Assembly: GCF_000003605.2 (NCBI RefSeq)
Contig: NW_003156736.1
Location: forward strand, 249,036-274,760
DNA: 25,725 bases
From: Saccoglossus kowalevskii
Lineage: Eukaryota > Hemichordata > Enteropneusta > Harrimaniidae
Reading direction: 5' to 3'
The notes beneath the pieces were generated by a model. That model did no database searches. It saw only the letters and a program-made list of their open reading frames with translations, and had not been told where the DNA came from. Positions 3,401 to 24,400 of the stretch are shown in pieces; position 1 is the first letter of the stretch, and the number at the start of each line of letters is the position of its first letter. A program made the position numbers and the translations under genes.

Positions 3401-6400
3401 GCATGGCAATGTTTTGGTCGGTGTCTTTGAAAGTAGTATCACTGTGATGCATCGACCAATCAACAACGAGCATAAGATCGCATGGTGGCAGAGATATATT
3501 CGCAGAAATAGAACTCTGCCCTGGGAGATTAGGTTCAGAGATCAAATTTTTAAAATATTACTGTTCAGGCCTTTGGCTATCCCGTCTAGATTGTGCTGGA
3601 GAACTAGTATCAATATTGGGTCAGAAGTCAAATTGTGATTGGGTCCGAGGTCAAATTGTGATTGGGTCCGAGGTCAAATTGTTATTGGGTCAGAGGTCAA
3701 ATTGTGATTGGGTCAAAGGTCAAATTGTGACAGCACACAGATTGAAAGAAATACTTTTAATTTAGTGAAACAATCGACATTGATATACTGATATGAACTT
3801 TTGGTCAAAGTTGACACCAGTAGTTTTGATAGTATTGAAACAATTGCTGATTTTCCGTTATATTACATGAAAGACGCATACCAACGCTAGCCACAAAAAT
3901 TTAATGATTTGATTTTGAAATTGAAATCCTTTTTTTTTTAAAGCTCACTGTTGAAACATACATCATCAAAATTGATCATCATCAAATGTGTATGCCACAT
4001 TATTAACCATGTAAATGCGGATCATTTGTCCAATCCTTTGCAATGTTTTGACGCTTCTACGACACTACCTTTGTTTCTTCTGTTTTATGTCTGATTTCAC
4101 GCACAATGTGGGACCTCGCAGTGACCAGAAAATGGTCTATTCAACTTAATTTCATGTCAAAATCATTTTATTTTCTTCTTTTCAGGTGGGGATAAATTAC
4201 CATGGTCAATAAGTTTTACAAATTTCAGCTGTTACACAATACTGGATTCCCAGAGGGTGTATTACATGGTAAAACCAATGGGAGTGACTTCTACTTTAGC
4301 TGTTAGCACAGTTGATGGTACCCCCTCTGGGATCAAATCAACATTAGGTCTATGTTTACACGCTGATATGCAAGCTGTAATGCTGAATTGTTCCCATGAG
4401 CAGGTAACTATTGGACGGATCGAATGAAATACAAATTCGCAATTTGTAAATATTTCATTTTTGATGTTTACAAAATGAGGTATTTTACTGTGTGTAACCA
4501 AAATATTAGAGTCTACAGGGACAGGCAACATTGACAAAAATCAAAGGAAATAAAAATATTGTTTCATGCAACGTCGCTTTATGTGTTATACTGTAAAATG
4601 ACTAATTTTCACTGGGTTTAAATTTCACTGATTTACCATTTCAGGCATAATTCAGTGGGTTTTAAATTCACGGTTTCATCATTTAGATAATGTGTTCTAT
4701 GCTAAATTTTTCATATTCACTCGGTTTTAATTTAGCACATTTTCCAGTCAAGCAAAATTGAAACCCAGTGAGTAATTAATCCACATTAAGCAAAATTAAA
4801 ACCCAGTGTGTAATTAATCCACATTAAGCAAAATTAAAACCCAGTGAGTAATTAATCCACATTAAGCAAAATTAAAACCCAGTGAGTAATTAATCCACAT
4901 TAAGCAAAATTAAAACCCAGTGAGTAATTAATCCACATTAAGCAAAATTAAAATTGGTGAGTAATTAATCAACAACATAACAATTTTTTTCAGTAGTTTA
5001 TGTAACCTGAATTTGAAAATATCAAATAGATTAGATGACAGACTAGTTTAGATTTAAATTTTCATATACTGTTGCTAAGATAATTAGGAGCCATTTTGTA
5101 ATCCATTTTTGAAAAGTGTTTCAGATTTTTTTGAAAACCTACTACCCCTGGTACATGTAGTTTATATAAACTGATTATTTTTGTTTTGAAATTTGTTCAT
5201 AAAAAAAACCCATAAAAATCATATTTTGTGATGTTAGAATTATACCTGCTGTAATATGTATGACATAACTTAGAATATTTGAATGTAGTCGTGCACGTCA
5301 ACTTTCAAAAATCACGTTTCAATCATAGAAAAACCACAATTACCTGTCCCTGTGTTCTCTCGTGTCTTTGTTTTAACTCGATTCAGTATACTTTGTGATT
5401 GCTATTCGCCAATTAAAGTTTATTTTAACATTGCAATACATTCTAGGTTAATTTGATATATACGTTAGTAATGACAGCTGTATCCACTGCAAAAAATGTG
5501 TTGACTAAGAAGACGTCCATTCCGTCGCCCCCGTCAAGTATGCAGCCAAGTCCGGGAGTGATAGTTACATCTGGTAAGCAACCAATCAAAACGGTCCAAA
5601 GTACAACTTCTTCCAGCGCTGTCGAGATTGATGCTCCGATTGAGCCAGCATCGGCTGACGAGACTGGGACGTCAACAGGGTTGTCCTGGGAAGAGGATGG
5701 ATGTAAGACCAGTGGGAGGAAGAGTGCAAGGATCTCCCTATGGATGCAATGGACTGTGCCAAAACTCACTGTTAATCTTTATGGAGAAGATTCTAAAATT
5801 GAAAATAGAGGTAAGGAATTGTATTTCAAATTCTATTTAGTTAACAAACAATTACAAATGCTGTGCCTAGTGATACATACTTCTCGTGAATGTCTAACAG
5901 TAATGTAATGTCCAGATAACTTATGGGAGATCGTGGATGAGATCCGCAGGTGCTTGTGGTCAACCGGGTCTGATTATTACCAGGATAATGCATTGACTGA
6001 CGGACAGATGTTTGCACAGCCCTGTCATGTAGATCAAACATATATATGGTTCGTGGCTATGTACAATTAGCTGGGAGAGACATTTTTGTTAGTATTTGTT
6101 CAGATGCATCAAGCATTTTGAATCAAGCGTTTCTGTCATTCTGAATCTGGATTTTAGTCATGCATGGATAGATATTATTCATACTTGGAACTTCATAGAA
6201 CCGTGATTTTGTTTATAAATCAGATTCAATTTGGAAATTTTGTTTTAAAGAATGATGTTCAGGAGATGTATCTCTGATATGCCACAACTATTGCATTCAA
6301 ACTTTTGGGGGAAGGGAGGTTACTAATAACGCAAGTTTCTCAATGTGTCCAAATTTGCTAGTACGACATTGTATAAACGATTGTCTGAAAATGATTGATA

Positions 6401-9400: not shown

Positions 9401-12400
9401 GCAAATTACCAGAACACAGGTACTGTGATTTATTTTGAAACCATACATCTCATTAGTTCCTGTTCAGCCATAATCTGAAAATATGGTCTCTTGGATTACC
9501 CCTGGACCAATCATGTTCAAACTTGTGTACATGCTTTTCTTCAATGTTCAATTCAAGATAGCCAAGATAAAATGGATGTCATTTTAAATAAAAAAATTCC
9601 TCAAAATCAAGTATTTCTGACCTGGACCTTGTTTTATCTGGACATATTTCGTTCAATCATTAATCGTAATGTGACCTTGATGTTTGAACCTTGAATTCCC
9701 TAATAGTGGCTATTTCGTTTAAACTTTATATGATGCAAGATCAATGGCAGTCATTTCAGTGTGAAAAATGCAGAAAAATCAAGCATTTCTGCCACAAATC
9801 GTGAATTGTGAATGAATAGAATTAATTCGAACTTGGTGCAAAAACCATGGGACTTTAAAACCCAGTTATTTTGTTTTCCATATCAGATTCAAAATGACTC
9901 ATAAATTATTTTTCAGATACTGGTAAAATTTTACCGGATCCATCAGATTATGGTGTGCAATGGTTGGAAACTTGCCAAGGTGAACCAGATCCTAAAACTG
10001 GTATACTGCCCTCACTGTATACACTCACTGTCAATGATTTCATGTTTAAACCAGGTAACTATCATTCTATGCTGAAACTTCCTCAATCTTTCAAAACAAA
10101 CGTAACTCGTAGTGTTTCAGTGTGAAACTGGTTTTCTCTTGAGTTCCATGTCCTTGGCATTGTAAAAATGATTTCAATTTGCTTATTTGGGGGAAAACTT
10201 ACTCTACCGTGTCACCCAGATTGGTGGCTTTACACTATTTGATCATTATGGTGAAACAAACACAATTCATATTCAATCCACACTTTGCAATGACATTGTA
10301 TAACCACCCTGCAATATGCCCTGCCAGTAAATGGGTGAAAAAAAGGTGTTTTGGGTTTGTTTGTTTTATCCATCATCACCTGTCAATAAATATACTACCG
10401 GTAGTCTTGTTTTGAGGGGGATTTTGACAAACAACTATGCAATAAAACACAGTTGTGTAATCGAACACCATTGTATCTGTTTGATGTAACCAAAGCTCTT
10501 CATCTTGAAGAGGAATTCGCCAACTTTTTGAAAATGTTGACTTGATTATGTACTTTGTACCGGATGTGTGGCAAATTTCAGATTAAACCAGCTTTATTAA
10601 AAACTCAGAGATCTAACACTATTCTATTAAAATTCTGTTCAAATGATGACATTTTTTTTGTTTTCTATTTTACCTGAAGCAAATGTCAAATTGAACATTG
10701 CTCGGCCGCTAAAGTTAAATCTAAGCATCACTAAAGTGGACGAAGTAATGGAATTTCTAGGAAAGTTGTCTCCCAAGACGACGGATAATACAATGATGCT
10801 AAAGAAAGATCTGGCATCACCAGATGTTTCACAGCAAGAAACTGAGAAACACGAAACTGCGCCACCAGAGTATGTACCAGGAAATGCAGGGGATGTCAAA
10901 AATGTTAAGACTGGTGCTGGTCGCCGTGACAATGTCTTCCCGATTATCATCCCGATGCCGAGTGCTGACCAGAATTCCACAACTTCACTGTCTGTTGGCT
11001 CCTATAGAAAGAAGAATCTAAGTCGGGCACAAGATGATTCTGTCACTATGGTGGAAATGATACTGGCACAGTTGGATACAGTATTGTTCCAGGCGTGCGA
11101 ATTTGTGGTTGTCGTGGCAACAGTTCCTCATCCAAACTTTCCACATGCTGTGTTTTCTCTGGGGAATATGTCAGGCGAAATGAGTGTGAAGTCAAAGTCA
11201 AATGGTAATTATTGGCATTCATAATTTTAAGCTTTTTACTTCAAAGGTCAACTTCCGTCATCTTTCACAGGATCTATTGGAAATTATGTACATTTGCTCT
11301 AAATTTAACTATTATTATAGAAAATGTTGCAGGAAAAATGCTGTTCAAGGGGTTAACAGTTTCACTAACAGACTTTCTCGCCCAAATTTGTCTGCATTTT
11401 TTCCCTTATGTTCTTCATTATTTCTGGAAATGAACCCTAATTTTGGAGCCAACAGACAAAATTTGAGTTGATTTTCAATTTCTACTGAAAAAAGTTTGCT
11501 ATTTTTGCTCAGTGTTCGGAAGGAAACTGCAGACTATAAACTTTTTGTTAGTTTGTGGTGCAACGGTTAAAAAATCTTTACTCGATTATGAAATGTGTGA
11601 TTACCTGAAACCTTGATAATAAAATCCATCATTTAATATGGTCATATTTTCTAGGTTTGATTGAAAAAGTAAATGCAATGATAAATCTGAATGAAATTGC
11701 TCTGAAAACCTCCCTCCAACATAAAAGCCGTCCACTGATTGGTCCAGTCAACACCACCATGTTACTTGATGCTGATTGGTGTATGCACAGTGGGTCTGAT
11801 GAAAAGTTAAACTTACCAAAGATTGCATTCAATGTTGAATGTGGGCTTATTCAGCTGCAAATAGGACTGGCACAATTCAACTGTATTGAGATGATGATGA
11901 AGCATGTTACAGAGTACTTAGAAAAAAGTCGAAAAATCACCGGGGTAGGGAGAATTTATGTGTTCTTTTTTAAATTACAACAATAAAGTTCAGCCATACT
12001 GTGCATTTTCTCGCACATTAGATGATTGTCCTTGGGATATATTTCTGTATTATGCAAATGTATTGACCCCCTAACTTATCATTAATTGTTTGAAAATTTT
12101 GCTGTGCACTTACTGCCACTTAATTGTTTATATAAATATTATATAGAGTATGTAAATTAGTGTTATTTAATTTTGTCGAGCTAAATAGCATAATTTTCTG
12201 ATATCTACAGGTCTTGATTAAATTTTGGAAAAAAATATGGGTGTGGCCCAATAGGTGATTTTCCATTCAACTGCGAGATCTTGCGAGATGCATGAAAGAC
12301 ACGCGTCGAACGATTTGATTTTGAACTTGAATTTCTTTATTTCGTAGCTCACATTGACCGGCCGATATTCGACAACGGAATATTGCTTACAAATACCCTC

Positions 12401-15400
12401 ACTTAATCAAAATTATTAAGCATGGAAATGCCCCCCCCCCCCCAAAAAAAAAAAAAATTTCGCGTTTGTCGAATCCCAAGCGATGTTTGACGCCACTACG
12501 ACGCTATGACCTTTGTTTGTCCTGTTTTCACGTTCAATTTCATGCATAATGCGTGATTCTTGCAGTGAACGGAAAATGGTTTATTATTTTTGACCCCACC
12601 CATGTCCAGACCACCGTTTTTAGTGATTATCGATACATACCCACTTCTGTACACCAAGACGCATTTGCAGTGTATAGCTGTTCTCTGCGAGAGCCAAAAA
12701 TATTTTTTCTGAAAGCACAGTTTTAAAATAAAAGATCAAAATAATAATGTTTCCTTTAATTGTAATACATTCAATGACTTTTGTATGTTGTAGGTAAAAG
12801 AAAGCAAAACAAATAAGGAAAAAGTTGTTGATGAAGATTCAGATAGTTTAGCTGAGAAAAATTCCATCAATAATGACATTGTTTCATCTACTGATGATTT
12901 GAGAGTTGGTACATTCCAGTATATCACTGATAAAGGTAGGTTAGCTGTCACAGTAGTTATACTCACTCCCCCCAGTTTACCATTATCGTATTATCTACTG
13001 ATGATTTGAGAGTTGGTACATTCCAGTATATCACTGATAAAGGTAAGTTAGCTGTCACAGTAGTTGTACTCACCCCACCCCCCCTCCCCAGTTTACCATT
13101 ATCGTATTATCTACTGATGATTTGAGAGTTGGTACATTCCAGTATATCACTGATAAAGGTAAGTTAGCTGTCACAGTAGTTGTACTCACCCCCCCCCCTC
13201 CCTCCCCAGTTTACCATTATCATATTATCTACTGATGATTTGAGAGTTGGTACATTCCAGTATATCACTGATAAAGGTAAGTTAGCTGTCACAGTAGTTG
13301 TACTCACCCCCCCCCCCCCTCCCTTCCCAGTTTACCATTATCGTATTATCTACTGATGATTTGAGAGTTGGTACATTCCAGTATATCACTGATAAAGGTG
13401 AGTTAGCTGTCACAGTAGTTATACTCACCCCCCCCCCTCCCCAGTTTACCATTATCGTATTATCTACTGATGATTTGAGAGTTGGTACATTCCAGTATAT
13501 CACTGATAAAAATAAGTTAGCTGTCACAGTAGTTGTACTCACTCCCACTGATATTAAATTTTAATTTGTATAACTTAAATTGTTTTTATTTTATAGATGG
13601 TATGAATATTCAACCCAAGCCAAATGAGATTGTCTTCTGTAGTTATAGTCCAGATAGTCTTGGCACAATGACGTGGTGTTACAAGGAACCAAGAGTGTTG
13701 ACGTATGTAGCAGTAACGCCAGTGCCGTTTACAACTAGTGTCGGTTCTGATCTTAGTAATTCAAGCCATGTAGACAAACAGGTAAAGCATAAACACAACC
13801 AGTCCTGTAGTTTTATATTAAAAACATTTACATTAAAAAACTGCAATCCATCCGGGCATTTTCACCGCTTGGCAACCCTGGCGGTGAAAACAAAGGCCAA
13901 AAACTCTCAGAAAACGGTACTTTGGGATGATTGTTGAGACTCCTCTGAACAGTGTAACAAGATTAGCCCTACGTGTGTAACACATATAAATTTGGTTGTT
14001 CAGAATTACTTCAAAGTTGAGTTTGTGTTGTTTTCTTGAATTTTCACCGGCTCGACCTGCGTTCCACAGCATTGCACACAGAGCCCATAGAAATACATGT
14101 ACAGTGGTGCGCGTCTTAGCAACGTGGAAAGTTTTGTGACGTAGCTCCGCCCCCGAGGATAAAGGAGTTTTGAGTTTTCTGGTTGCTTCAAAACTGAGCA
14201 TGTTCATGATGGAAAGGTGAGGGGGGGGGGGTATTTTATATCTAGTCATTTCTTGAACCTGTTTGAAAAAAACATGTAGAGACAAAAGTACATAAAGCTA
14301 CCAAGATGTTATAAATATATTTTGTCCAACTTCATTGTGTGTGTGTGTGACTGAAAAACATGTTTTCCATATTTTTTTGAATATGCTATAAACTTTCAAA
14401 GGTGACTTGAATGCTTTTATAGAGTCTTGCAGTGAATTCCAGTTTGTTATTCTGCCCCCAATGTTATTTGTATTGAATACTGTAGAATACTTTATTTTCG
14501 CTTGGAATTTATTTTCGCTGTTTTCGCTGAAGGGATGATTCCGTGAAAATAAAATCCAGCGAATATACTTTTTTCATATATATTTTACATTAAACTCATC
14601 AAAAATCAGTGAAAATAAATTCTACACAAAACGCCTAAAAAGCTATTTCAGCGAAAATTAATTCCAGCGAAAATAAAGTATTCCACAGTATATTTGCATA
14701 TAATTTCCCTTATATGTGGTAAATTACATCACCATACATTGAACATGTTTCATGTTTTTGACTTCGCACTAAGGAAGGAGAACAATGAACAATACTTTTT
14801 CACTTGGAATTTATTTTGGCTAAAAGAATTATTCAGTAAAAATACCCTTTTTCCTATATTTTACATTCAACTCATCAAAAATCAGTGAAAATAAACTTCG
14901 TACAAAACAGCTAAAAAAAATTTTTTAGTGAAAATTTGTATCACCTAAAATAAGTATTTTACAGTAACCATTTTTTTTCACAAACTCAGACACATTTGCT
15001 TTCGTGTTTTCAAGAATTATATGTTTGTTTTGCGTTACTGTGATCATCTTGCGCTTGTATAATTTCACATATACCATAACATCAGTTACGTACCCTTGTC
15101 TTAAAAATCCTTGGTTATATCGTTGTCTTTTCCGCTCCTAGATACCATGCACCATGGAATACTGGGACAATTTGAAGAAGTCATTTGTGGTTTATAAACA
15201 GTTGTTTGTCGCAGAGGATCAATCGTATCAAGTAAAGCTACCAGATATCAAAGATGCCACCACAGCCAATGAAAATATAGCAGCAGAGATGTGGAGAGTT
15301 GTGTTGCATTCTGGGAATTACCAAGAAGACGATTTGTAATTATTTCTGTTATGTTAATATGAATTAGGGGTGGGTTGGGGAAGGGGGTCACACCTGAGTT

Positions 15401-18400
15401 GCCATGCTGGTTATTGGTCTGTATAGTTGACACTCAAGCAATTGACCCAGCAAATGGAATTGATTAATTAAAATTTAACGCATTGCCAGTGTACGCCCCA
15501 TTGATTTTGGTATGTTTATGGAATCTTTATGAACCAAATAATGACTATTGCATTGTGTAAATACATCACTTTTATGCATTTGATTCGTGATTTACAATAT
15601 GTGCATTCAGGTTTTTTTGCCATCCAAGAAAGGTTGTATTGGCCGATGCCACTGGTCCTCCTTTGCTGTGAATAGTTGTTCAAAATTGCAGTCAACACCA
15701 AAGTTTGGCTGGATTTTGTTAACCGTTTGTGATTGTCCTGGAGAGTATAATGGTATTAGCTAAAAGGAATGTAATGAAAAAATAACTACCCTAATATGGG
15801 CATGTTTACCTTCCTAACGACAAATGATCCCATGTGCTCAGCCACAAACACTCGTATTCAGGCAATTATATATATATATATATATACTACTTGTCCAGTT
15901 GTCTTGATAACATTTCTTTTCTTTTTTTGGTTTCCAGAATTGATGATGACACATCATCCGTGCATGCCTTCACCGATGAGCCCCCGATTTCTCCCATGGC
16001 TTTGGCTGCGTCAATGCGAGTGGATTCGTGCTTTGCTGCGAAATTTGTCCCCGCATTCTCTGCATCTTTGAACTTCACTATCATACAGATAAAATGCAGC
16101 AACCATATCAAGTACGCTGGCACTGGTGAGTCAAATGGATCTTGTAATATTTCATGTGAACAATTCATTTATAAGATGATGTATAAGTGATATGGTATGC
16201 GATGAAGGTCACACAAGAATATAAAAAAAATTATTCCGGCAAGTTGCAAGATGATCACAATGTAATGTAACACATTATTATTTAGAAAAGAAAAACTAAT
16301 TTGATATTTAAAAAAAAATACTATTTTATTGATGAAACTTTTTATATATACCTAATCATTTGGCAAATTTTTGTAATTTATTGACCTCCAAAATTATGAC
16401 CTCACCAGAAATTGCTCACTCATTTTTACTACAAATATTTGTTTAGAGACATGACTTTCTATAATTATTCTATTTCTGCAACTTTTATATTTGTTGAATT
16501 TTTACTAAAAAAAATTTATCGTTTTGTATTCTAAAAACTCGACTGCTCAAAAGAAATTATTTAAAATGGTTGAAATTTTAAAGTTTTTGCGGTTTCTGGT
16601 CTACACACTTTTCAGAATTTTAGAAAAACATAAATTTAATGAAAATTCAGAATAAAAATCCACAAGCATACCTTGATTTTTTTTGGCCTAATTAATATCT
16701 TTTTCAATTTACTCTACCGCTATAGCATCGCCAGTTAAACTAGACCCATATGAATTTGATGGGACTGCCCCAGTAGATCAAGAATTTATGGTGGTTACTC
16801 TCGAAGGACCATCGGCGTTAGTCAACTGCTGGAGAGGAGACAATACAAGAACCCACATCCAGGTAGGTGCAGTGCATTGTGGGGGGGGGGGGGTATGCAA
16901 ATGTGACTATCCAGGTGGATCCAATGAATTATGGGAGAAATTTATGCAATTATTCCATCTGTATACTTTTCTTTCAACACTATGGTTGTGTTTTTTGTTT
17001 TTTCACAAAAAAATTGGTATTTTAAAAAATTCACCTTTTTTGAACAAAATTTGTTACGATTGTGAAAGTGTTTAGAAGGGAAAAATACAAAAATTAAAAC
17101 ATTTTTGTATGAATTTTTTGGTAGGACGATGAATTGAATTATTTCAATTTTTTTTGTTGTCTTCCAGATATCCAGCTCTTTGCAGTGTGACCTACTGGAG
17201 TACAGAAATCTGACGATGCAGTCTGTTATTGAGACCTTTGATATGATTGGCAGTTTATATATTAAACCCAATGCCATTGGATTGCAGTTGTCAGTGGAGC
17301 CTGTGTTCGTTAAAATTGCCCAAAGTGCAGTGCATACATTGAACTTGGCAGTGCAGACATTACTACAGGTAGAGATTGTACAAATATGTTAAATTTTTGC
17401 CCCCAGCAATTTTCAATTCTTATAATATTGATAAATTCGTGAAGGCCAAAGATTACAAAAATTCCTCTGATATGGTCACTGCTTAGAAATTTCCAAATTT
17501 TCTCGTATTTGCAGAGCAAAATTACATTTTACAAGCACTTTAGAGATGGACCAATAACAACCAGGTGTTTTTCAAGATTAATCATGGGTATATAGTTGTA
17601 GACTCTAAAAATTCAACCACCTAATTAGTCCCCGTTCGGACGGGGACTTATAATTCGGTCTCCGTGCGTCTGTCCGGAGTCATATCTCAGAATCCCTTGG
17701 ACTGATTCCGTTCATTCTTTGCATGTGCCTAGTACTTTATGTGGAACATATGCACATGCAGTAGTTTAGCGATTTGATTCAAAATGGCCGACTGGCAGCC
17801 ATCTTGTTTTTTGAAAATGTACAGGATTGTACTGTTTTTAGTTCTCTCAAAACTAATTATTTAAAACTGGTTAAAGTTATTGCAGTACATTACTACACTT
17901 TTTGAAATTGACCATCCCTCAGCACATCTCCCTTTAAATACCAAATATAAATAGAAAGTAGACTCTGTTTTAATTTTTCACACTAAAATGGTATTTGAAA
18001 ACAACATATTCAAAATATTAACAATCTATTTTTCAGAATAACAAACCCGAGAAAGAACAGCTTCTCTACAATTATTACGTGATATGCAATGACACACAGG
18101 AGACGCTACGCTTTGGTCAGGTGTCTACAGATGAATCTATTATACTGGAAAGCAGAAAAATGCATGCATACAGCTGGAGAACTCATAAATCTGCACAGGT
18201 AATTCACCCTCCATATGCTGCCCTCCATCCCTGAAATTTATGGTGGTATAGTCTAAATTACCCATCATGCTCTTGTGAACAATCATGATACACAGAACCT
18301 TTTTAGTTCCCGTTCGGACGAGGTACGAAAAGGGGACTTATAATTTGGTTTCCGTGCGTCCGTCCGGAGTCATATCTCAGAATCCCTTAGATCAATTAGT

Positions 18401-21400: not shown

Positions 21401-24400
21401 TAAAACATGCACATTGATTAAGGTAACAAAGTTGTTTTAATTTATTGAATTTTTGTATTAATGTGTTTATTCAAGTGCTGAAAATGATAAGTAAAATCCC
21501 AGAAAATGTTAGTATCAGTCTGTCCAGGTTTCTGTCCGTTCATGCTGTCAATTCAACTTCTGTGCAGCAGACAACAGGCATTGTCTAAAGGCCTTTTTAT
21601 ATGAGTCAATTTTTGAGGCAAGGCACCATCAATGCATAATGCAATGCAGTCACAATAAAGGTACACAAGGCAACTAACTGTGGTTAAATCAGTTGCCTCA
21701 AAAATAAAATCAAGATGGCAGTTTTTTCAGACGACGATATCTGACCCAACTCAGACGAGCTAATTGCTTTGTGTGAACTAGACTTTACATTCAGATTTAT
21801 CAGGCTTTTCATTTGTATGTCTATTATTGCTATCATTGTATGCACTGTGCAGCAGACCAAAGTAATATTAGGTAATGGTCAAAAAGTTCGTTCGTACAAA
21901 TTTTTGGGTCATCACTTGACAACCATCTCCAGTCTCATTTTGTCCAGGGCCAAGTCATGATAGAACAGTTTATTTTCTTGATATTCTTATTTAATATTTT
22001 CTTTCAATCAGATTCCTTGTACTGGTAAAAAACATATCTACATCTGGTGTAGACTATTTACAGACAATCAACAGAGGCTGGTAAGTCAAATTTATTTTTC
22101 ACCATTTTGCTTTCCCCTTCATTTTCATTTCTCTCAGTTCTCCCTTCCTCCTTTTTCTCTGCTCTTAAGTTTCCTTCCTTTTCCACAAACTCTTCCCTCC
22201 TTCCTCCTAATGAGGTTTGTCTGTATGTCCATCATCCTTTCTCTATGCTGTAACTAATGAAAAATCCGAAATTTTAAAAGCACTACAATTTCCTGATACT
22301 TTCGTATAGTGTAAAATACTTTATTTTAGCTGGAATGAATTTAGTGCCATATCTCTGCTTTCTGTGACTGATTATATTCAAATTTTAAATATTTATTATA
22401 CATCATGTCATAGATATACAGATATACTGGTTTGACGATCCTATTATAAATGGCCAAATGGTGGCCATTTTTGTACTTAAAAAATCATCAAAATCAAGCA
22501 TTTCTTGGCTGTTTACAGATGGATATTGTTCAAACTTGGACATTATAGGACCTGAATGCACATCCTTTTGTTTTTCAGATAAGATTCAAAATGTCCGACT
22601 GGCGGCCATTTTGTTTTAATGAATGTGGTTCTAGTGTCATATCTCTGACTTGCTGTGACTAATTATATTCAAATTTTAAATATTCATTATACATCATGTC
22701 ATACTCTTAAAAATGGTCGAATGGTGGCCATTTTTGTGCTAAAAAATCATCAAATATCAAGCATTTCTGTCATTTATGGATAGATTTTGTTCAAACTTGG
22801 TACAAACATTAAACATTACGGGTTCCTGATGAACGTTATTTTATTTTTTAGATCGAATTCAGAATGGCTGACTAGTGGCCATTTTGTTTTAATGAATGGG
22901 CTTCTAGAGCCATATCTCTGACATACTTTGATTGACCATGTTCAAATTTTATATATTCATTATACATGTATTTAAAATGGCTGATTTTGTTTTAATTAAT
23001 GCTGTTCCAGAGCAATATCTCTCGATACTCGTTTGACAATCAGATACAAATGTCAATCATTTAAATGTTAAACAATCATCATAATCATATTTCTGACATG
23101 TTTATATTCCAGCTATATTACTATAAACAAAACCATATATCTTAAATTTGATAACTAACAGGGACTGTGCCCATACATGGCTTGTTTTCACTGAATCATT
23201 CCTTCAGCGAAAATAGCAAAAACAAATTCCAAGCGAAAGTAAAGTATTTCACAGTAATTGAAATAGAGCATATAGGTACTCTTTCCTGTAACAATTTTAG
23301 GGGGTAATTCTCTATTTTTCGTCGTCATCATTGTCAACTTTGTTGCCTGGCTCTTCCCGGTAATATAAAATATTTTTGTCAAATTTTGCATTCTGTCCGA
23401 ATTTGAGAAAAAAAATATAGAAAAGACAAGCTGCAAATTTGAATATTTGCAAGTACTGTAAAATACTTTATTTTCACTCAGAATTTTATTTTCGATATTT
23501 TCGCTGTGCAGCAATGAAAATAAAATTTAGGGAATATACTATTTTTTCTATATTTGACATTCAACTCGCCAAAAATCAGTGAAAATAAATTCCTTACAAA
23601 ACACAAGTCTTTTCAGTGAGAATTGATTCCAGCTAAGTATTTCACAGTATACCAAGTTAAATACATTGTTACATTTTTGTTACAGGTTCTCTTCAGCCCG
23701 TTATTTGTTGTTCGTAGTCACCTGCCGAGACCGGTAGTAATGAACATAGAGACGAGTAAAACCAAGTCAATACGCCATTACAACATTTCAGATCAGGGAC
23801 AGAATATATCCTTATATGATCTGGAACCAGATATCTGGCATTATGTTACATTTCAACTCAGGTCAGTGTTACCATGGAAACATGCATTGCGATTGCCTTC
23901 TATTGTTCATTGTATATGTCGTCTGTATTTATTTCAGTAATGACCACTGTTTGTGTTTCATGTTGACAGGGCAAATGTGTGAAATACTGCCCTTTTTACT
24001 GACACAGTTTACATATTTTTTCTTTTTTGTCACATTATTCTGTATTTTTCAATAATTTATTTATTAATTTTGAAGCAAAGGGATATAATTTCTCATGAAT
24101 TACAAGTTTTGAACAAAAAATATGGAAAAATTTAAATTTGATTTTAGTGGGAGGTGAAAAAAGTTGATTTTTTTTTTTTTGCTTTTGTTTTTTTATACTT
24201 GATACGATGCTGTTTCAGACAATTTTTTTTTGGGAAAAATATGTCCAAGCACCTTTGAGTTTTCTTGTTCAATACAAGACATACAAAATAGTTGGGTAGC
24301 TATTTTTTAATATTCACCAGCGTAATTGTACATATTCAATAATGATCAAATCATACAGAAATGAAAACACGCTATGTTTTCTCCCACATATAGTGCAAAA

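Follow-up and report, generated by a model that had tools for sequence, protein, structure and literature searches.

The window analysed here, a stretch of 25,725 nucleotides from Saccoglossus kowalevskii (contig NW_003156736.1, positions 249,036 to 274,760), encodes on its plus strand a gene of the VPS13 family. Membership was judged by VPS13 domains in the encoded protein, and a Pfam match to VPS13_VAB (E-value 6e-6; 25.5 bits against a curated cut-off of 22.6) was found on one of three joined stretches of the gene model. The other two joined stretches showed no VPS13 match in Pfam, and the one containing the exons M, N and O described below had no Pfam match at all when joined. Among ten single pieces of the model, two matched VPS13 domains, both below the Pfam cut-off; exon M alone gave a weak VPS13_M match (E-value 0.0042; 15.7 bits against a cut-off of 50). 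A single weak PDB match (E-value 0.28) was titled putative vacuolar protein sorting-associated protein, and the window had no match in Rfam. By general resemblance, the gene may be VPS13B, which is a guess. The gene model is a simple one of our own with 28 exon candidates. Three of them, located in repeat arrays (1-63, 129-293 and 3590-3718), were left out of the acceptor statistics, giving 25 model acceptors, and others may be wrong too. In the model, exon N is preceded by about 1,428 codons, and some 312 more separate it from the exon at 18121. Exon M (11655-11944) ends in phase 0, exon N (12794-12935) is 142 nt long with the donor GTAGGT, and exon O (13597-13781) takes one base from the preceding exon.

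Downstream of exon N, its final 49 bases (12887-12935) are repeated five more times at a period of about 118 bp, along with the donor and some 31 bases of intron. TRF reported a single array (12970-13546; period 118, 4.9 copies, 94% matches, score 1032); including the tail of N, the whole tandem array extends over 12887-13546 on the plus strand and consists of six blocks. The sequence-only reading had described four 67-base copies, each preceded by a C-rich tract with AG and followed by a GT donor, and all four are present: c1 (12976-13042), c2 (13092-13158) and c3 (13210-13276) with the donor GTAAGT, and c4 (13331-13397) with GTGAGT. Copy c1 begins 40 nt past the donor of N. Four is the number of copies with a GT donor, but the array has a fifth, c5 (13445-13511), which kept its acceptor and lost its donor, with AT for GT and a G to A change in the last exonic base, so that its exon/intron joint reads AAAA/AT where the other copies read AAAG/GT. 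Each joint between blocks is composed of a C-rich tract of varying length, an AG and the 18 bases TTTACCATTATCGTATTA, with one change, G to A, in c3. These 18 bases are absent from exon N. Their comparison with N stayed at the chance level, both in matches (8 of 18, as many as at 12% of random positions, for which the mean is 5.3) and in gapped score (2.0; random mean 2.65). The 21-base sequence that opens each copy, CAG followed by the 18 bases, is found five times in the window at up to three mismatches, against 0.00 expected in 100 shuffles. Downstream of it, the six blocks do not differ over the first 48 bases of the exonic core. A 39-base exact pattern from the exon tail had no match in the viral_contigs and genome_contigs collections, where an animal gene is not expected.

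The reading frame permits one unit at a time. Since M ends at 11944 in phase 0 and O, from 13597, takes one preceding base, any single copy fits between them in frame, as had been proposed. When all 32 ordered subsets of N and c1-c4 were placed between M and O, only the five that consist of a single exon were open and 27 contained a stop. M-copy-O was open for all four copies, and M-N-copy-O ran into TGA TGA in all four cases, which bears out the predicted TGA for a copy placed after N. Long forms were stopped as well, both those joining the acceptor of N to the donor of a copy (four of four) and those running from the acceptor of a copy to a later donor (six of six). A single alternative thus keeps the frame, and joint inclusion or skipping breaks it, a feature of mutually exclusive clusters. 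Substitution of N by a copy would replace 47 codons by 22 and shorten the protein by 25 residues. The anticipated exchange of a charged linker for FTIIVL applies to c1, c2 and c4; c3 encodes FTIIIL. As c1-c4 encode one peptide save for this V to I change, choosing among the copies would alter next to nothing and offers no repertoire. The phase compatibility of four copies is also less demanding than their number suggests. The copies inherit the frame and donor phase of N, so that only the phase of the new acceptor and the 18 bases had to fit. When intronic AGs of the window were combined with lengths, 19.8% of the 42,688 combinations fitted in phase and left the frame open, and 505 of 736 18-base stretches following an intronic AG were open. 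Because the copies descend from one unit, their phase fit counts as a single coincidence with a chance of about 0.2, or one in five.

Splice sites were scored in two ways. With a generic matrix, in which C and T have equal weight, the donors of c1-c4 scored 7.7-8.1 bits against 6.0 for N, whose GTAGGT was the weakest of the five, and the acceptors scored 2.95-8.60 against 2.18. In percentiles of all AGs, the copy acceptors lay between the 96th and the 99.8th and N at 94.2; for donors, the copies lay at 99.5-99.8 and N at 98.8. In the second scoring, the acceptor composition was trained on the 25 model acceptors (58% T, 16% C). The acceptors of c1-c4 then fell to percentiles 85-95, above 4 to 12 of the 25 model acceptors, and that of N stood at percentile 93, above 9 of 25. 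Copy c4 had the top donor score and, with the gene-trained composition, the top acceptor score among the copies; in the generic matrix its acceptor was tied with that of c3. The copy acceptors are therefore middling against the T-rich acceptors of this gene, and the difference between the two scorings means that their strength hinges on whether this species can use tracts made of C alone.

The spacing of the units is tight. The gaps from each donor to the next acceptor are 40, 49, 51, 54 and 47 nt, and the shortest model intron outside arrays measures 201 nt; a 65-nt model intron inside the array at 1-420 was taken as spurious. A CTCAC branch point candidate, counted on the sequence at 30 nt past the donor, lies about 11 nt from the AG of c1 and 18-25 nt from those of the other copies. 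Judged by these distances, neighbouring units would be expected to exclude each other. This does not extend to N and c2-c4: introns from N to c2, c3 and c4 would span 156, 274 and 395 nt, so that spacing would be no bar to joint, stop-bearing splicing.

Neither selection on the copies nor a docking site was supported. Two of 67 exonic columns were variable against 4 of 31 intronic ones, so the exonic part is not significantly less variable (Fisher's exact test: p = 0.08), and leaving out c5 gave 1 of 67 against 3 of 31 (p = 0.09); selection was therefore rejected as evidence. Docking-site pairing was examined for the intron of c1 against five regions, with 200 shuffles each. Pairing with the intron after O exceeded all 200 shuffles, and the stretch involved contains a run of 11 G at 14221. 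For the M-N intron, 4% of shuffles paired as well, and for the three remaining regions 10.5%, 30% and 43.5% did. The pairing with the intron after O was not taken as a docking site, as runs of at least eight C or G are common here: six occur in 25.7 kb (12431, 13189, 13307, 13428, 14221 and 16881) against 0.065 expected from mononucleotide shuffles. The run at 16881 lies at the end of a model exon.

A second array of related kind is present in the same gene. At 1-420, TRF found 5.3 copies of a 79-bp unit that repeats an exon tail with a GTAAG donor. When joined to the exon at 486, its first donor left the frame open and all four later donors led to a stop, and by eye no plausible acceptor was seen ahead of its copies. 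This array shows that a donor-bearing array can exist in this gene without the logic of an exon cluster. Variants common to its copies 1 and 5, likewise noted by eye, suggest a duplication of higher order. The idea that arrays are concentrated at donors was rejected: two of nine arrays in the window contain a model donor, against a mean of 2.4 under random placement (P = 0.78), so that no special cause is needed for arrays at donors. The locus is repeat-rich, with further tandem arrays at 1660-2011 (32 bp), 3615-3730 (23 bp), 4750-4974 (38 bp) and 22444-22967 (273 bp), three within model introns and that at 3615-3730 overlapping a doubtful model exon. In the intron after O, two stretches (14480-14700 and 14800-14960) look alike by eye in opposite orientation and share the motifs aatttatttt and gtgaaaataaa or gcgaaaataaa, perhaps representing a short mobile element.

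We consider it likely that the array is a young minisatellite lying across the 3' end of exon N, the copies being pseudo-exons and N remaining the normal exon. Minisatellites consist of units between some tens of bases and about a hundred in length, repeated head to tail, and the array, with a TRF period of 118 and 4.9 copies, belongs to this class. Its regularity, its near-identical units and the loss of the donor in one of five copies argue for this reading. The anatomy of the duplicated unit can be read directly; the order of events that we infer is the following. An initial tandem duplication would have joined the last 49 bases of N, the donor and 30-40 intronic bases to a second copy, and a short filler at this joint would have happened to supply the C's, the AG and 18 open bases. 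The unit would then have expanded to five copies while the C-tracts changed length. The intron of N, now 661 nt, was probably about 85 nt long before the array (13512-13596), given that the former donor of c5 lies 85 nt before O and that TACTCACTCCC is common to the start of the intron of N and the end of that of c5. After TACTCACTCCC the sequences diverge, as if units had been added there. The array may have been tolerated because the complete exon N and its donor come first. The copies would mostly be skipped and occasionally be spliced after N, leading to a stop codon and decay, or in place of N, giving the protein 25 residues shorter. Intron position 4 is A in all five other blocks and G in N, which suggests that the donor of N changed from GTAAGT to GTAGGT and may thereby have become weaker.

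Some observations count against a silent minisatellite. The donors of the copies, and their acceptors in the generic matrix, outscore those of N, so that actual use of the copies would come as no surprise. Across the blocks, the exonic core is invariant over its first 48 bases and the intronic part varies, though not significantly. In addition, no source of the 18-base filler was found on either strand of the post-array intron end, the M-N intron or exons M, N and O; nine of ten local alignments scored lower than their shuffles did on average, and 0.6 of the shuffles scored at least as high as the tenth.

If the copies were used after N at a real rate, the array would act as a source of poison exons, with the stops lowering gene output through decay. 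The long introns from N to c2-c4, the stops in every joint inclusion and every long form from the acceptor of N to a copy donor, and the strong copy donors are consistent with such use, but no more than 40-54 nt separate neighbouring units, among them N and c1, and the C-rich acceptors exceed at most 12 of the 25 model acceptors. We regard this as unlikely; an exclusive cluster is no more likely. An error of assembly, in copy number or in the array itself, has very little probability: runs of 10-13 C between near-identical units are hard to assemble, but the units differ in C-tract make-up and single bases, and a like array is found in the same gene.

The sequence-only reading had favoured a nascent switch-type exon cluster and named poison exons as the alternative. 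What holds of it is that only single-unit forms are open, and the tight spacing of neighbours agrees with it; partial copying, near-identical peptides and a phase fit arising from one event speak against it, and a regulated cluster is possible but unlikely. In its simplest form, N and a copy would be a nascent mutually exclusive pair enforced by frame and spacing, exchanging 31 residues, mostly a charged linker, for six. The five open subsets, the weakest donor being that of N, and the CTCAC candidate 30 nt past the donor agree with this; in human clusters, donor-to-branch distances under 50 bp and frame incompatibility are counted as mechanisms in the available text of one study (PMC5740500). 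Human VPS13B, moreover, exchanges exon 28 for 28b, giving transcripts for 4022 or 3997 residues according to the accessible part of PMC9188546, a difference of 25 residues as well. By a rough estimate of position from the codon counts of the model, however, N would sit too far downstream to correspond to human exon 28, and the shared 25 residues are probably a coincidence. Considering also that the copies are interchangeable, that N is copied only in part, that the pairing of the intron of c1 gave no specific evidence of a docking site and that the phase fits by chance at about 0.2, such a pair appears improbable. More improbable still would be a switch exon at birth, in which repeat expansion provided, in one step, several frame-locked and nearly identical substitutes for an exon of a large gene for a lipid-transfer protein, frame and tight spacing enforce exclusion from the outset, and each of the C-tracts can pair with the one run of 11 G downstream of O so that the acceptors compete. 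In that case, copy number would tune the ratio of the long to the 25-residue-shorter protein.

Several known systems resemble the locus in part. In clusters of mutually exclusive exons derived from tandem exon duplication, as far as the available texts describe them (PMC9013439, PMC6071210, PMC5740500), exon sequence and splice sites recur in the following intron and the frame stays open with a single copy only, as is the case here. In the present case, known from its sequence, only the last third of the exon is copied, the acceptor side is new and the copies are near-identical. Homology over the exon and similar length, the usual features of such clusters, are not seen, with 49 of 142 bases copied and lengths of 67 against 142 nt. 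Such homology is usual and not absolute, as some annotated human mutually exclusive cases also lack it in the part of PMC5740500 available. A known route of intron gain, in which a tandem duplication crosses an intron-exon boundary (PMC4974935, available in part), is alike in that an exon boundary is spanned and splice signals are passed on. There, the copied part was the end of an intron with the start of an exon, and a new intron was detected; here it is the end of an exon with its donor, the acceptor is new and any splicing of the copies is hypothetical. The C-rich tract directly before AG recalls cassette exons with C-rich polypyrimidine tracts enhanced by poly-C-binding proteins, which the accessible text of PMC4797308 reports for mammals; here it is a likeness of sequence, in a window where runs of at least eight C or G are common. 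The literature search found nothing on a C-rich tract with a cryptic exon or on a minisatellite with a splice donor at an exon-intron boundary, and, by title, nothing on point on intronic minisatellites and splicing. Intronic minisatellites in general show a regular array and variation in tract length, and the array fits them with its unit of about 118 bp and variable C-tracts; it differs in carrying an exon tail with its donor inside the unit.

If the copies are spliced, mutually exclusive exons may begin from repeat expansion instead of clean exon duplication, with copy number as a testable dial. If they are not, the locus calls for caution, as phase-compatible copies with splice sites would arise easily when a minisatellite crosses the end of an exon, and similarity-based predictors of exon clusters may call such pseudo-exon arrays. 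The presence of a second donor-bearing array (1-420) in the same gene makes a genome-wide survey worthwhile.
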